From assembly GCA_014379585.1 (NCBI GenBank), contig JACMLN010000030.1:1-47516 (forward strand): 47,516 nucleotides of DNA, written 5' to 3'. Positions 35,252-41,402 of this stretch are shown piece after piece. A program made the translations under genes and the position numbers. Source of the stretch: Gloeobacterales cyanobacterium ES-bin-313 (GTDB lineage Bacteria > Cyanobacteriota > Cyanobacteriia > Gloeobacterales > Gloeobacteraceae). The number at the start of each line of letters is the position of its first letter. Within the stretch, counting starts at the first letter, position 1. A model generated the notes under the pieces. That model saw only the letters and a program-made list of their open reading frames with translations. It did not search any database and was not told the origin of the DNA.

Positions 35252-36400
35252 CTAGGCGTGGGCATAGGAAATCATACCAATCGCATCTTCAGGTTTGTAC
35301 TGGGGAACTTGTACCCAGAAGCAAGAGCCGCGATGTTGTTTCGAATGCATTCCGATACTACCACCCATCCCATGGATAAATTCTTGACAGAGGACGAGGC
35401 CTAGTCCTGTGCCTTTGAATCGGTCATCGCTGGTTTGATCTTCGCCTGCAAGTTGGGCATAGCGACGAAAGAGTAAAGACTGTTTATCTTCAGCAATTCC
35501 TGGTCCCTCATCGATAATCCCAATCAAGATGTCGGAGGGGCTAAGGTGGGTTTGCACCAAAATTCGGCTGTCTTCGGGACTATATTTGCAGGCATTGGAG
35601 AGCAAGTTCAATAGCACTTGTTGCAGTTTCTCGCGGTCAGCGAGGACAAAAGCACTGGCATGATTGACACCGATATATTGGCGCTTGAGGCGGGCGAGGG
35701 GCGTGATCTGCTCGATCACTTTGTCGATAAACTCGCGAATATCGATGGGCTGAAGGTTGAACTCCATGCGCCCTTCTTCAAGTTTGCGCAGATCGAGAAG
35801 GGTTGAAATCAGCTCTGACAACTGAATCGCTTGTTGTTCAGCAGTATCGAGCAATTCTAAGTTTTCGGCTAAGTTGGCAGGATCGTTTATATCCATGCGC
35901 AACATTTCGAGCGAAATGCGCAGAACTGCCAAGGGTGTTTTGATTTCATGGCTTGCGAAGGCCAACATGTCCGACTTGAAGCGATTGAGTTTGGAGAGTA
36001 CCGTATTTTGGGCAACGAGTTTGCTGTGCATGGACTGCACCCGTAGCCCCGTTCGAACCCGCGCCCGCAACTCGTCAGTCCTGATCGGTTTTGAGAGAAT
36101 ATCGTCAGCCCCTGCGTCCAGGCCGAGTATACGATCTTCACTGCCTGTACGAGCAGTCACCAAGATAAAGTAAGTCCAAAGATTTTGGGCATCTGCTTTG
36201 AGTTTACGGCAGAACTCAACACCTTCGAGGTGGGGCATCGTCCAATCGGAGAGCACGACATCTGGATTCTCTTTGAGAGCAATTTCTAAAGCTTGAACCC
36301 CGTCGCATGCCTCAAAAATCGTGTAACCATCGCAACGCAGGCTATCTGCGATGAGCGCCCGCACAGCGCGATCATCATCTGCAATCAAGATCTTGGCCAT
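35252..36400 (-). CDS. Response regulator / histidine kinase hybrid
   Basis: A 382-aa soluble signalling protein: an N-terminal receiver domain (1-120; DDD at 8-10, phospho-acceptor D52 in LSDWTMP, SKP with the conserved lysine near 104), a short linker helix, a HisKA dimerisation domain with H151 in FASHEIKTPLAVL, and a HATPase_c domain with NLLSNACKYSPED (N box), DEGPGIAED (G1) and GTGLGLVLCQEF (G2). There is no membrane segment or sensor of its own, so it is probably fed by another kinase through D52 and passes the signal on, in the manner of cyanobacterial receiver-first hybrid kinases. It converges with lgt, one base apart. Confidence 0.94.
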   Translation of the reverse strand: MAKILIADDDRAVRALIADSLRCDGYTIFEACDGVQALEIALKENPDVVLSDWTMPHLEGVEFCRKLKADAQNLWTYFILVTARTGSEDRILGLDAGADDILSKPIRTDELRARVRTGLRVQSMHSKLVAQNTVLSKLNRFKSDMLAFASHEIKTPLAVLRISLEMLRMDINDPANLAENLELLDTAEQQAIQLSELISTLLDLRKLEEGRMEFNLQPIDIREFIDKVIEQITPLARLKRQYIGVNHASAFVLADREKLQQVLLNLLSNACKYSPEDSRILVQTHLSPSDILIGIIDEGPGIAEDKQSLLFRRYAQLAGEDQTSDDRFKGTGLGLVLCQEFIHGMGGSIGMHSKQHRGSCFWVQVPQYKPEDAIGMISYAHA

Positions 36401-36486: not shown

Positions 36487-36519
36487 TAAAAAAAGACCCT
36501 GTCGATTCAAGACAGGGTC
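36487..36519 (-). terminator. Terminator after the 30-aa ORF
   Basis: GACCCTGTC (36495-36503) and GACAGGGTC (36511-36519) form a perfect 9-bp stem; on the minus strand it is followed by a run of seven T. It closes a minus-strand transcript that starts before the hybrid kinase gene, consistent with the 30-aa gene being expressed on its own. Confidence 0.8.
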
Positions 36520-36625
36520 GCTCTAGGAGAGGAAAATTTGGTCAAAATTTGAGGGCAATACTGATAGTTTTCATGTCGTTAAACTCCAGTCATAAAAAGC
36601 AGTACAGAGTTGAGATACCATCACC

Positions 36626-36888: not shown

Positions 36889-39024
36889 ATGCGCACAAAG
36901 CGAGGAATGGTTCTGGTTCTGGTTCTGCTGCTTGGGTTGATGCTGATGGTCATGGCTCTCACCCTTTTAGGGATCAGTACAATGCATTCGGGTGCAACAC
37001 TCAGCCGGAGGGACAATGCAACCGCTCAACAACAGGCTGACAGCACAAGTCTTCTTATCCAAAGTAAATTGCTGGAGGACTTTCAGCAATCTGGATTGAC
37101 TCGCAGCGAGTGGATGCGCCGTTTGCAACTTCCTCCGCAAGATCCGCTTTCGCGCTATCAGGCAAATGCCAATCGACCGGAACTCCAGCCTTTTTTACAA
37201 ATTTCATCAAAAAATCTCTGGAATACCCCTGGCTTAATCGCGATTGCCAGTGTTGCGCCTGTTGAAACAGCTGCCCGAATTTTTGCAGACAAAAATCTCG
37301 AAGTGCAAGCTACCGCCTATTTAAGAGGATCAAGTCAGACGGTTGTTCGGACATTACAAGGCTCAGATCAAGAAATTCTGAGCTTTGCGCTCGCTGCGGC
37401 TGCGCCCCACTGCCAGTTTTGCCATCTCCACGTTCAAGGAGATGTGGCGGTGCTGAGTAACGTCTGGCCACAACAACCTCTAGATTCCGCTCTCGATTCC
37501 GCGATCAAGGGCAATCTCTATAGCTACCAACCTTTGGGGGAAGCCGTTAAAAAGATTGATCGCAGCCCAGACAGCAAGATTTTTGCTCCTTACTACGGCC
37601 CCAAATTTGCCCTTTGGCGGGGAAGTGATGTCAATGGCGACGGATTGTTGAATGATTTTCCACCCATCGATCCGACTGCTTTTGGAACGAATACTGGAAG
37701 TGTCGAAGGCAATGTCCAAGTCGTTCCGTTGGGTGCACATTTTGAAGGAAGTGCTCTTGGCCGTCTCCAAGGCCCAGCCCAAGGCCATGTCGTGCTCGTT
37801 GGCGAGGCACCGAGTCCAACAAATCAGTACTGCCGAAAAGCCCAGCAACCCCTAAAAATCGATGGCGATCTGTTTATCCTTGGTGACTTGGTGATTGAAG
37901 GCTGTATTGCGGGACAGGGTCGTCTTTATAGTGCTCGCAATATTTATATTGCCGGAGATCTTGTCTACACCCACGATCTTCAGAATGCTCAAGACAGTTT
38001 GGGTCTTCTCGCCAACGGCAGCATTATCTTGGGCGATTACACCGAAAAAAATGCGGGTGCAATGCCGAAGCTTTATCGCGATCAACTCGGTGCCCACTAT
38101 CTGCGTGCCCGATTTGGATTGCCCCCCGGAAAACAAGTGGCTCTAGAGACAACTGCACCACTGTTTACGGAATTGATTCAAGATCTTCAAGGCAACTATC
38201 GCAGACTGAGTGGCAGTCTTGTGGACAAAAACAATCTGCAATTTCAAGAAGGTTACGATGCCCTGATCCGTCCTGCAGCCGAGTGGTTGAGCGATCAGCA
38301 GTATGTGAACTTACTTGGGGAAGCTGTGCCAGGTGGTAAGGACTCAGTGAGTACCTGGCGGATCGATCCCCAAACCTATATGCTTGCCGGTGATACCCTC
38401 TGGAATCTTGCCCACAGCCAAGATCCAAAGCAAAGACAAATCCTCCAGAACTTCTTTGTTCAAAATTTACAGTTTGGCTCTTACTCCACGGCTAATCAGG
38501 ACGCTGTTAGTCGTGCTCAAGGCATTTTGGATCAGTTGAAAATCGGTGTCAGCGGCTGGAGTGAAAAGGGTTTTACCTACTTAGACAACGATCTTCGTCT
38601 CACAATCTTTAATCGCATCCCGAAGGGAAAAGACTTTGACTACGATGTACCTAGACCTGTGCAAATTCAGCGCATCGACGGATTTTTGTACAGTGCCCAC
38701 CGGATTGGTGGCGTTGTGAATGGGACAAACTTGGCAATCAATGGAGCGGTGAGTGCACCCGATGTGGCGATCACTGCCCCCGGTATCGGCGAGTTGCAGG
38801 CTGCTTGGACAGAGAATCAGGCACTTAAAAAGCGCCTCATCGTCAAAGGACAGCAGATCAATCCTCTCCAAAACACAAGTTATAACTATGGAGCGATTCT
38901 CTACGATGAGCGACTGCGCAACCTTCCACTGCGCTACCTCTCTCGCCTCAATGCCGCTGAGCAGATGCAATTCAAACTCACCGCCTCCCCTGCAAAGGTT
39001 TGTCGCAATGCCCAGTGCAACTAA
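36889..39024 (+). CDS. Large PilX-like minor pilin / type IV pilus-associated protein
   Basis: A 711-aa protein, first of a four-gene pilin operon. The N-terminus MRTKRGMVLVLVLLLGLMLM has the basic leader and hydrophobic helix of PilX-type proteins. The ATG at 36889 has GAGG nearby; upstream codons lack this character. Distinct parts are a CxxC (CQFCHLHVQGD, about 188-198), an EF-hand/dockerin-like loop DVNGDGLLND (247-256), and a region of alternating GDL strands (LKIDGDLFILGDLVIEG, YIAGDLVY; about 320-370) that suggests a beta-helix. It is much larger than usual PilX (about 200 aa). It may sit at the pilus tip as an adhesin or initiator; this is inference. It overlaps the next gene by 17 bp. 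Confidence 0.75.
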   Translation: MRTKRGMVLVLVLLLGLMLMVMALTLLGISTMHSGATLSRRDNATAQQQADSTSLLIQSKLLEDFQQSGLTRSEWMRRLQLPPQDPLSRYQANANRPELQPFLQISSKNLWNTPGLIAIASVAPVETAARIFADKNLEVQATAYLRGSSQTVVRTLQGSDQEILSFALAAAAPHCQFCHLHVQGDVAVLSNVWPQQPLDSALDSAIKGNLYSYQPLGEAVKKIDRSPDSKIFAPYYGPKFALWRGSDVNGDGLLNDFPPIDPTAFGTNTGSVEGNVQVVPLGAHFEGSALGRLQGPAQGHVVLVGEAPSPTNQYCRKAQQPLKIDGDLFILGDLVIEGCIAGQGRLYSARNIYIAGDLVYTHDLQNAQDSLGLLANGSIILGDYTEKNAGAMPKLYRDQLGAHYLRARFGLPPGKQVALETTAPLFTELIQDLQGNYRRLSGSLVDKNNLQFQEGYDALIRPAAEWLSDQQYVNLLGEAVPGGKDSVSTWRIDPQTYMLAGDTLWNLAHSQDPKQRQILQNFFVQNLQFGSYSTANQDAVSRAQGILDQLKIGVSGWSEKGFTYLDNDLRLTIFNRIPKGKDFDYDVPRPVQIQRIDGFLYSAHRIGGVVNGTNLAINGAVSAPDVAITAPGIGELQAAWTENQALKKRLIVKGQQINPLQNTSYNYGAILYDERLRNLPLRYLSRLNAAEQMQFKLTASPAKVCRNAQCN

Positions 39025-39865
39025 GCGAACCCGCCATGGCATTACCCTCGTCGAAGTGTTAGTGGCGATGGTGATCTTGGCTCTATTTATGGTTACCCTG
39101 GCACCGATGCTTTCGGCCTCGGTGCTCCTGCGCCGCCAGCAAGAACTGATCGCCGAATCGACGGATCTAGCCCAGTTGGAAGTGGAAGAGGTGCGCCGCT
39201 CGTGGGCGATCCTTGATGCTCAGGGGGGCACTACGGCCAGCCAGAACCTCGGTGGCCTCACACCTTTGTACATGCGCGAACGGGCGATCCCCCTCCCCCA
39301 GCCCTGCAAGCTCAGTGCGACTGAAGATCCTAACTGTCAACAAGATCCACCAGTTCCACCACCGTTGCCGAGCCTACCCGCTTCCAGTACCTACCCTTAC
39401 GATTCCGCCGGATATGAGGTAACCAGTCCTGATCCTTCTGGCAGTGGCATCGATGATCTGTATCTCTACGATCCGAATCTGGAACCTCCGTCTTCTGAGA
39501 AAATTGCCCACTTCACGATGCGCGGTGTGCGAGGATCCCAGACCTACTACACGCAAGTGTTTTGGGGATACGCACCGGGATCGACAACGCCTGCCCAGGC
39601 AAGTACCAATCCCCGCTGGTACGAAAAAGAAGTGGTGCGGGTGGTGGTGCGCATCTATCTAGCTGGGCCGAAAGGGACACTCCCAGTTGATACGGAGGGC
39701 AACCCGACGCGCTTAACCCGTGCTTCGCGGGTCTTAATCAATGGCCAAATCCGAGATCTCTCCGACAACAGTGCGAAATCGAACGATCCAACTGCACCAA
39801 CCGTCTTTAGTCCTCTGGCTCCCTTAGTTGTCCTCACTGCGGATATTCCAAGGAGGTACCAGTGA
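39008..39865 (+). CDS. PilV-like minor pilin
   Basis: A 285-aa prepilin. The ATG at 39008 gives a short basic leader, then the class III signal motif HGITLVEVLVAMVILALF: cleavage by PilD after glycine, the conserved glutamate at +5, then a membrane helix. The body is proline-rich (PPVPPPLPSLPASSTYPY) and otherwise unassigned. By order and length it matches the PilV position in minor pilin operons. Its start lies inside the end of the preceding gene, and its stop overlaps the next start, so translation is probably coupled. Confidence 0.85.
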   Translation: MPSATKRTRHGITLVEVLVAMVILALFMVTLAPMLSASVLLRRQQELIAESTDLAQLEVEEVRRSWAILDAQGGTTASQNLGGLTPLYMRERAIPLPQPCKLSATEDPNCQQDPPVPPPLPSLPASSTYPYDSAGYEVTSPDPSGSGIDDLYLYDPNLEPPSSEKIAHFTMRGVRGSQTYYTQVFWGYAPGSTTPAQASTNPRWYEKEVVRVVVRIYLAGPKGTLPVDTEGNPTRLTRASRVLINGQIRDLSDNSAKSNDPTAPTVFSPLAPLVVLTADIPRRYQ

Positions 39866-40434
39866 GAAATCCAAAGGGATTTACCCTCCTTGAGTTGCTG
39901 GTGGTGGTTGTGATTGTCGGCATTATGAGTGGTACAGCGATTGTCTCTAGCCTCGGTCTGTTGCAGTCGCGGCGTTTCGACAGCGCTGTGGAATCCTTTG
40001 CCAGTGCCGCCCGTCAAGCAAGGCAGTTCGCCCAAAATCGCGGTGAAACCTACACCTTTGAATTTACCTTGCACGATCCAAATAGCAATAAAAGTGCTGA
40101 GGATCCGCCCGATCACTACCTTCTCTATCGAGGCAGTCTGCGACCCAAAAATCCGGATTGGCAACCCCTTCCGGAGCATATCTGGATTTACCGTACCAGC
40201 CTCAATGGCCCGCCTTTCCAGTGGACTTTTGATGAACGCGGTACGATTGCCCCGAACCAAATGGGCACAATTGTGCTTCAAGACAACACAAATTTGGATC
40301 CTGGCCTCGAAACAGCTGGATCCCTAGCCGAGTATCTGCGTGGAAAAAAGACCAACCCCAATGGCCGCAGTCGCGGAATCATCATGAATACATACTTGGG
40401 AAAAATGTCTGTCGTGACCATAGGAACACTGTGA
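39862..40434 (+). CDS. GspH/FimT-type pseudopilin
   Basis: A 190-aa prepilin. MRNPKGFTLLELLVVVVIVG is a textbook prepilin N-terminus: short leader, glycine before phenylalanine, glutamate at +5. Length and the short soluble domain (FASAARQARQFAQNRGETYT, ending near EYLRGKKTNPNGRS) match GspH/FimT proteins. The start is a GTG with a perfect AAGGAGG six bases upstream, overlapping the stop of the PilV-like gene by four bases. Confidence 0.9.
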   Translation: MRNPKGFTLLELLVVVVIVGIMSGTAIVSSLGLLQSRRFDSAVESFASAARQARQFAQNRGETYTFEFTLHDPNSNKSAEDPPDHYLLYRGSLRPKNPDWQPLPEHIWIYRTSLNGPPFQWTFDERGTIAPNQMGTIVLQDNTNLDPGLETAGSLAEYLRGKKTNPNGRSRGIIMNTYLGKMSVVTIGTL

Positions 40435-41402
40435 TGTTGCGCAAGCGAAATGGGGTCACCCTGATTGAACTATTAGTAACAATTACGATCAGCACGATCC
40501 TCATGGCTGCGCTCACCTACACGTTTGTCAACTTTGGTCGCAGTGCCTTGATCGAGGCTTCGGTGAGCGATGTCCAGGCTGATGTCCACAGTGCCCTTGC
40601 TTTTATGACCGATGAACTGCGTCGCGCCCGCTACATCTACAACACAGACGAAACCAGTAAGCGTACAGACCGTCTCTACCTCAATCCTCTCAATCCCGTC
40701 ACTGAAACGGATCCAGAACAATTAAGTCAAGTGATTTTTGATAAAAGTGAACTGATCCAGGCCAATTCCCCTGGTTTTCGGATCTTGCTAGCCTTTTGGG
40801 TGCCTAGCGTCTCTGGTACTTCCCGATTGCCCAAAGATCAGCGCCCTCCTGTAGAGAAAGGCACACCGCTCGCTTTTAGTGTGAGCAAAGGGGAGCTGGT
40901 TGCTTGGGGAACCCCTGCATCGATTCCGGCCTACAACTTGGTCGTCTACTATGTCACCGACCCACCCCCAAAATCGGCATGGATTGGGCCGCGTCTGCTA
41001 GAGCGATGGGAATCGGAGCCAACTCCAATTCGCTTTGAAGAATTTGTCGAAGCGGAGACTTCCGATCAATTTTTAGCACCGGATTCCGTGGACATCACAA
41101 ATGCCCCACCGATCGACAGTATTTACCTAAGAAAACTCCCGCCAAGCGATGCGAGTAGTTTCGCGCTTGCTGATTTTATGTCTAAGGATGAAGGGAGCGC
41201 TGTCAGCTATCTCAGTCCTCAGACCGTTGCCATCTCTTTGAAAGGTAGCCTTGAAGGCAGTCAAGCCGAGCGCTATCTTCAAGGCTCCTCGACAGCTGAA
41301 ACCTACCTCAAATCGAATGTTGGAGATGCTTTGAGCGCTTCAACCACTGTGGTTGCCCGCAATGTTTGTGTCACGAACACGATCTGTGTAAAAGATCCGT
41401 GA
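40434..41402 (+). CDS. PilW-like minor pilin
   Basis: A 322-aa prepilin from the ATG at 40434, overlapping the previous stop in TGATG; the GTG just before is an alternative. The N-terminus MLRKRNGVTLIELLVTITIS has the class III leader with glycine before valine, glutamate at +5 and a hydrophobic helix. ALAFMTDELRRARYIY fits the helix-to-head passage of PilW-type proteins. Its last ten residues include two cysteines (NVCVTNTICVKDP), which may form the C-terminal disulfide loop found in pilins. It completes the operon. Confidence 0.85.
   Translation: MLRKRNGVTLIELLVTITISTILMAALTYTFVNFGRSALIEASVSDVQADVHSALAFMTDELRRARYIYNTDETSKRTDRLYLNPLNPVTETDPEQLSQVIFDKSELIQANSPGFRILLAFWVPSVSGTSRLPKDQRPPVEKGTPLAFSVSKGELVAWGTPASIPAYNLVVYYVTDPPPKSAWIGPRLLERWESEPTPIRFEEFVEAETSDQFLAPDSVDITNAPPIDSIYLRKLPPSDASSFALADFMSKDEGSAVSYLSPQTVAISLKGSLEGSQAERYLQGSSTAETYLKSNVGDALSASTTVVARNVCVTNTICVKDP

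Follow-up and report, generated by a model that had tools for sequence, protein, structure and literature searches.

We analysed a 47,516-nucleotide stretch of DNA (hereafter the window) from Gloeobacterales cyanobacterium ES-bin-313, a Gloeobacter-like cyanobacterium. The window is the entire contig C18 (JACMLN010000030.1) of a 4.26-Mb draft genome (GCA_014379585.1; 96% complete, 1.5% contaminated). It carries a type IV minor-pilin operon led by the gene for a 711-residue giant minor pilin (36889..39024, forward strand), which belongs to a family found in three phyla and holds two sites conserved in that family, a CxxCH motif and a calcium-type loop. Judged from its sequence features, the giant is on balance probably a tip minor pilin with a probable β-solenoid head, a calcium site and probably a covalent haem. 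PilY1, the known calcium-binding tip adhesin, is apparently almost absent from cyanobacteria, so that the composition of the pilus tip there is an open question; the family described here provides a concrete, testable candidate for a tip protein, both in the cyanobacteria that branched off earliest and in two further phyla.

The operon and the N-terminus of the giant

Four overlapping genes on the forward strand, three for prepilins and one for the giant, make up the operon, exactly at the coordinates given in a preliminary description of this DNA. The ATG start of the giant gene comes after GATCGAGGCAAGTCG. Downstream lie the genes for a PilV/HpsB-like prepilin (285 residues, 39008..39865), a GspH/FimU-like prepilin (190 residues, GTG start, 39862..40434) and a PilW/HpsC-like prepilin (323 residues, GTG start, 40431..41402), with successive overlaps of 17, 4 and 4 bases. 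Each of the small proteins is a class III prepilin: the three matched Pfam N_methyl with E-values of 5.5e-7, 1.8e-8 and 2.1e-7, and Glu5 of the standard N-methylation motif was present in all. The nearest NCBIfam models were HpsB/PilV (2.5e-6 / 2.2e-4), GspH (2.1e-12) and HpsC (3.4e-9), respectively, all of these matches being below the curated cut-offs. Adjacent genes with class III prepilin N-termini identify the cluster as a type IV minor-pilin or pseudopilin operon, and the earlier description of such an operon was supported, with a leading giant of the PilX/GspK type that has an EF-hand-like loop.

At its N-terminus, the giant is of the PilX/GspK type and lacks Glu5. A hydrophobic pilin-type helix spans residues 6-41 (RG/MVLVLVLLLGLMLM..., 36904..37011, forward strand); the N-terminal sequence reads RG/MVLVLVLLLG, and position 5 is not Glu. 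PilX_N (PF14341) aligned with residues 5-41 at an E-value of 0.037 and 14.5 bits, short of the gathering threshold of 25.5, and was matched by 4 of 23 family members at E<0.05. The N-terminus of GspK (NF037980) was weakly matched by 9 of the 23 (best E-value 0.0012), and a full-length GspK match above the cut-off was obtained for none of them. Glu5 was absent from all 23 aligned giants (the window protein and 22 relatives). The lack of Glu5 is a signature of GspK-type tip pseudopilins, and we propose that no subunit need sit above the giant in the pilus because it lacks this residue. By analogy, we consider it likely, with good confidence, that the giant is located at the pilus tip.

The giant's family and its conserved head

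No family in Pfam or NCBIfam covers the giant. Single-sequence searches yielded no match, either by phmmer against the PDB or with the single protein against genome contigs. A profile of the Gloeobacterales sequences (A1) gave noise only against the PDB, and detected full-length relatives in Meiothermus, Trueperaceae, another Deinococcota genome and Planctomycetota. Full-length homologues, which were 24-49% identical to the window protein (24-29% for the most distant), were present in seven of the nine Gloeobacterales genomes and in none of the 381 other cyanobacteria among the 390 sampled, leaving no crown member. Whole-genome searches located homologues in 13 of 111 Deinococcota genomes and in 6 of 294 sampled Planctomycetota genomes. 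Loci L102-L105 were excluded from the family, as the part in common was a solenoid-like stretch only. A maximum-likelihood tree contained one group per phylum, and the giant gene stood among prepilin genes in all three phyla wherever the neighbours were examined. The suggestion that such a tip complex may be specific to a cyanobacterial lineage was therefore abandoned, since full-length homologues with both sites and with pilin neighbours occur in Deinococcota and Planctomycetota. In Deinococcota and in genome G007, a small gene (126-145 residues) follows the giant.

The preliminary description had mentioned a CxxC in the giant. The cysteine pair is indeed present; what had been overlooked is that the motif is C175-Q-F-C178-H179, namely CxxCH (CQFCH, residues 175-179; 37411..37425, forward strand), which is the consensus for c-type haem attachment and the most informative feature of the protein. 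C175, C178 and H179 were invariant in all 24 full-length members from the three phyla, and H179 was the sole histidine conserved across them. When the sequence of the giant was shuffled, CxxCH arose in 16 of 20,000 trials. A second, more distant subfamily (about 700-870 residues, mostly from Meiothermus-type genomes) also retains the motif (NNAECIFCHLDV), which was kept in 13 of 14 aligned members. In the sole exception, L114 of the Deinococcota genome G293, all three residues have changed, with G, S and N in place of C, C and H, and the rest stays conserved. The invariance of the three residues and their joint loss in L114 indicate that the triad behaves as one functional unit. L114 also offers a natural means of testing the site.

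CxxCH in an exported protein is the motif for attachment of haem c. All 24 members carry it, with export predicted from the prepilin-type N-terminus, and the source genome encodes a protein of the haem-attachment family CcsA/PF01578 (E-value 4.4e-69). A covalent c-type haem at CxxCH is thus suggested by the sequence, and we place its likelihood just short of even. At L197 (5938-13221) of the Meiothermus-type genome G335, two differing CxxCH giants of 706 and 747 residues adjoin, each with its own pilins.

The second site is a PilY1-type calcium loop at residues 247-258 (DVNGDGLLNDFP; 37627..37662, forward strand), in which DVNGDGLLND occupies residues 247-256. The consensus of the PilY1 calcium loop is Dx[DN]xDGxxD (PMC8833165). 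The loop of the giant is of this kind, with N at loop position 9 and D at position 10, and the strict form was found in most Deinococcota members. The variants were DTDGDGIPDFPP in Meiothermus, DVDGNGRLDDFPP in Gloeobacter and DVNGDGLLNDFPP in the window protein. D247, G252, D256, F257 and P258 were retained in 23 of the 24 full-length members, and a DxDxDGxxD-type motif arose in 96 of 20,000 shuffling trials. These features suggest that the head of the giant binds calcium.

The fold of the head was also considered. The most conserved solenoid-like strand block covers residues ~318-384 (GDLFILGDLVIEGCIAGQGRLYSARNIYIAGDLVY ... GSIILGDYT; 37840..38040, forward strand) and shows invariant G/D/R/N/Y columns in the family alignment. 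A second conserved solenoid-like block covers residues ~587-634 (VPRPVQIQRIDGFLYSAHRIGG...NGAVSAPDVAITAPG; 38647..38790, forward strand), with D597, Y601, R605, G608, G619 and G632 as its conserved columns. Strand repeats of the GD-V-x-x-G type were observed in the giant, and the relatives or the family profile gave weak matches to MinC_C, FapA, DUF7305 and hexapeptide repeats. An AlphaFold2 model of the giant, built on an alignment of seven sequences, was poor (mean predicted local distance difference test score (pLDDT) 46); within it, strands were predicted at pLDDT 64-78 over residues 301-350. A β-solenoid head, that is, a β-helix-like core, is plausible from these features.

The reported absence of PilY1 was confirmed for the whole genome. 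The PilY1 β-propeller model PF05567 had no match in the giant, in the source genome or in other Gloeobacterales, and a conventional pilY1 was looked for elsewhere in the genome and not found. PF05567 was likewise unmatched in 290 of 291 sampled cyanobacteria. The sole match, L091 (G064:C299 218-1345; E-value 1.3e-35), lies on a high-numbered contig of an 88% complete draft and may be a contaminant; it also confirms that the search works. None of the 19 giant-bearing genomes of Deinococcota and Planctomycetota had a match, and PilY1 was absent from 26 of 26 genomes with the giant. It is plausible that the giant takes over the role of PilY1.

A proposed model of the tip complex and its rivals

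Here, we propose that the type IV pili of this cell have several alternative tip (priming) complexes, and that the operon codes for one of them. The giant would take the PilX/GspK position at the very tip, and the PilV-, GspH- and PilW-like pilins, all with Glu5, would connect it to the shaft. Its large head would probably be a β-solenoid set into the pilin fold, as in Thermus ComZ, and would bind calcium at the DxNxDG loop. The CxxCH at the start of the head would most likely hold a covalent c-type haem, stabilising or tuning the calcium-dependent head. In organisms without PilY1, the giant could act as a calcium-dependent tip adhesin or receptor.

PilY1 and TfcP are among the closest known systems. 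In the PilY1 system with PilVWX-FimU, too, a protein of the tip complex that is encoded alongside minor pilins bears a Dx[DN]xDGxxD-type calcium loop; unlike the giant, PilY1 is not a pilin, and it has a PF05567 β-propeller, for which the giant gave no match. TfcP of Myxococcus xanthus, a cytochrome c whose gene lies in a minor-pilin cluster, enhances the binding of calcium by PilY1 (PMC8833165). The giant is likewise a CxxCH protein of a minor-pilin cluster that would be linked with the binding of calcium at the tip, whereas TfcP, a small, soluble cytochrome c that has a distal Cys, is not part of the pilus, and the giant is a pilin holding both the CxxCH and the calcium loop. A tentative extension, which we rate as somewhat less than probable, is that the giants are type IV tip pilins and c-type cytochromes at once, each bearing a single covalent haem and a calcium site in its head, and that they replace PilY1 across Gloeobacterales, Deinococcota and Planctomycetota. 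Such a cytochrome-pilin would combine the tasks that TfcP and PilY1 perform in Myxococcus, and it might serve as an adhesin or sensor that depends on redox state or haem. No description of a pilin with CxxCH was found in the open-access literature. If the motif binds haem, the giant would be, as far as the literature searched shows, the first pilin with a covalent haem, and would extend the TfcP-type link between cytochrome c and pilus-tip calcium. We regard the giant as a variant of the giant tip pilins already known, one that may have a property new to them.

Several points weigh against the reading of the giant as a tip pilin with calcium and haem in its head. The tip position rests on analogy with GspK and ComZ, and the similarity to ComZ detected by hhalign is limited to about 67 N-terminal columns. 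In the sole, poor model, the segment that contains both sites (residues 155-263) had pLDDT values of less than 50. The second subfamily has CxxCH without the calcium loop, which indicates that the two sites are separable. The complete match between presence of the giant and absence of PilY1 is weak evidence that the one replaces the other, since cyanobacteria are without PilY1 anyway, and the giant-bearing lineages may lack it for other reasons. Furthermore, no cytochrome model of Pfam or NCBIfam matched any family member, and a conserved Met, His, Lys or additional Cys that could provide the sixth iron ligand was absent from the family alignment. A five-coordinate haem c needs no distal ligand.

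The lack of a cytochrome domain match and of a conserved distal ligand also favours another explanation, in which the protein is the same tip minor pilin but binds no haem, its C-C-H triad capping the solenoid as a structural zinc site or as a disulfide plus a neighbouring His. The motif lies where the strand-rich head begins, a plausible place for a cap, and disulfides are frequent among extracytoplasmic Cys pairs. However, a disulfide explains neither the absolutely conserved His nor the fact that L114 has lost C, C and H together, an invariant fourth Cys/His ligand for zinc is missing, and CxxCH in an exported protein of a CcsA-bearing cell is the motif of a haem-attachment substrate. We regard this explanation as a serious possibility, if not a probable one. 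The similarity to ComZ of Thermus thermophilus (PDB 6qvi; PMC6561018), also a large PilX/GspK-type minor pilin in a minor-pilin locus, raises a different function. ComZ is a pilin with an inserted β-solenoid whose tip position was argued from its size (PMC6561018), and both proteins have a long head, a β-solenoid in ComZ and probably also in the giant. The complex could then act like ComZ-PilA2, with the solenoid head as a DNA receptor for natural transformation. The layout and size are similar, the giant has an N-terminal pilin helix, minor pilins of cyanobacteria are required for transformation (PMC12288463), and com genes are present in Gloeobacter (PMC7690421). Nevertheless, Meiothermus possesses, in the same gene region as the giant, a separate true ComZ (phmmer E-value 3.3e-98 to PDB 6qvi) that lacks CxxCH. 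Because Meiothermus has both genes and the similarity is confined to the N-terminal columns, the giant was rejected as a ComZ orthologue, and the DNA-receptor function appears unlikely.

The operon might instead be a divergent HpsABCD-type pseudopilin set for polysaccharide secretion and not encode a pilus tip adhesin. HpsA with HpsBCD (NF038301) shows the same arrangement of a giant PilX-like leader followed by three pilin genes; crown filamentous cyanobacteria have HpsA-sized giants (1538-1955 residues) followed by three pilins, the HpsB and HpsC models score well on the small pilins of the window, and another Gloeobacterales giant, L065, has HpsA homology (E-value 5.7e-28). Against this, no member of the giant's family matched the NCBIfam HpsA model (NF038301), and the giant was rejected as an HpsA; the family extends to Deinococcota and Planctomycetota, and the role of the HPS pseudopilins is itself unsettled (PMC12288463). 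The HpsA-sized giants examined (L194 7650-13514, L195 1723-6336 and L196 8981-14086) share a DxDxDGxxD motif with the window protein but are about twice as long and lack CxxCH. A secretion set of this type is the most improbable of the alternatives. In those giants the motif lies near residue 165-180, with several more in L196 (DVNNDGDLD), and a calcium loop may be common among cyanobacterial pilin giants. The giant-plus-three-pilins layout was also rejected as lineage-specific, since at least one further such set exists in the source genome and the same layout occurs in crown filamentous cyanobacteria. Nor is it out of the ordinary for a giant PilX-like leader to occur where PilY1 is absent. 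This layout is ordinary in cyanobacteria (hpsABCD); the head with CxxCH and a calcium loop is not.

Other pilin sets and neighbouring genes

The genome encodes PilB- and PilT-type pilus motors and at least two further minor-pilin sets, one on C29 with an 890-residue giant and PilV-, GspH- and PilW-like genes, and one of three pilins at the end of C100. Different minor-pilin sets have been proposed to form different tip complexes in Synechocystis, and it is hard to tell which cyanobacterial minor pilins make the tip complex (2025 review, PMC12288463). The pilA9-slr2019 operon of Synechocystis (pilA9-pilA11, slr2018) is a cyanobacterial minor-pilin operon like that of the window and is needed for flocculation (PMC6755745); in contrast to the window protein, the crown cyanobacterial giants sampled, slr2018 not being among them, have no CxxCH.

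The set with the 890-residue giant (L084, G000:C29, 2550-11208) adjoins genes of a contractile tail-like apparatus (baseplate J-like and gp25-like), and in genome G004 a gp19-like tail-tube gene is located close to the L069 giant. A run at L030 (G000:C189, 5917-11571) comprises genes for a T2SSE ATPase (517 residues), a secretin (~640 residues), a 723-residue PilX-like giant and a 180-residue protein. A run of this type is also present in Gloeobacter and lies apart from the main PilB/PilT/PilC genes; it appears to be a type IV filament or secretion system in its own right. CxxCH was absent from both the 890- and the 723-residue giants.

Adjoining the operon of the window is a divergent gene for a response-regulator/histidine-kinase hybrid of 382 residues (35252..36400, reverse strand), which from its position is a possible regulator of the operon. 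Between this gene and the operon lies an inverted repeat, GACCCTGTC...GACAGGGTC (36496-36521), preceded by an A run and terminator-like in sequence. Pairs of a histidine kinase and a LuxR-type response regulator also adjoin the homologous operons in Deinococcota. Such flanking pairs at giant-bearing minor-pilin operons were observed in Deinococcota and one crown cyanobacterium, the loci being L098 (3575-9860), L096 (1212-2883), L064 (4100-5901), L197 and L198.

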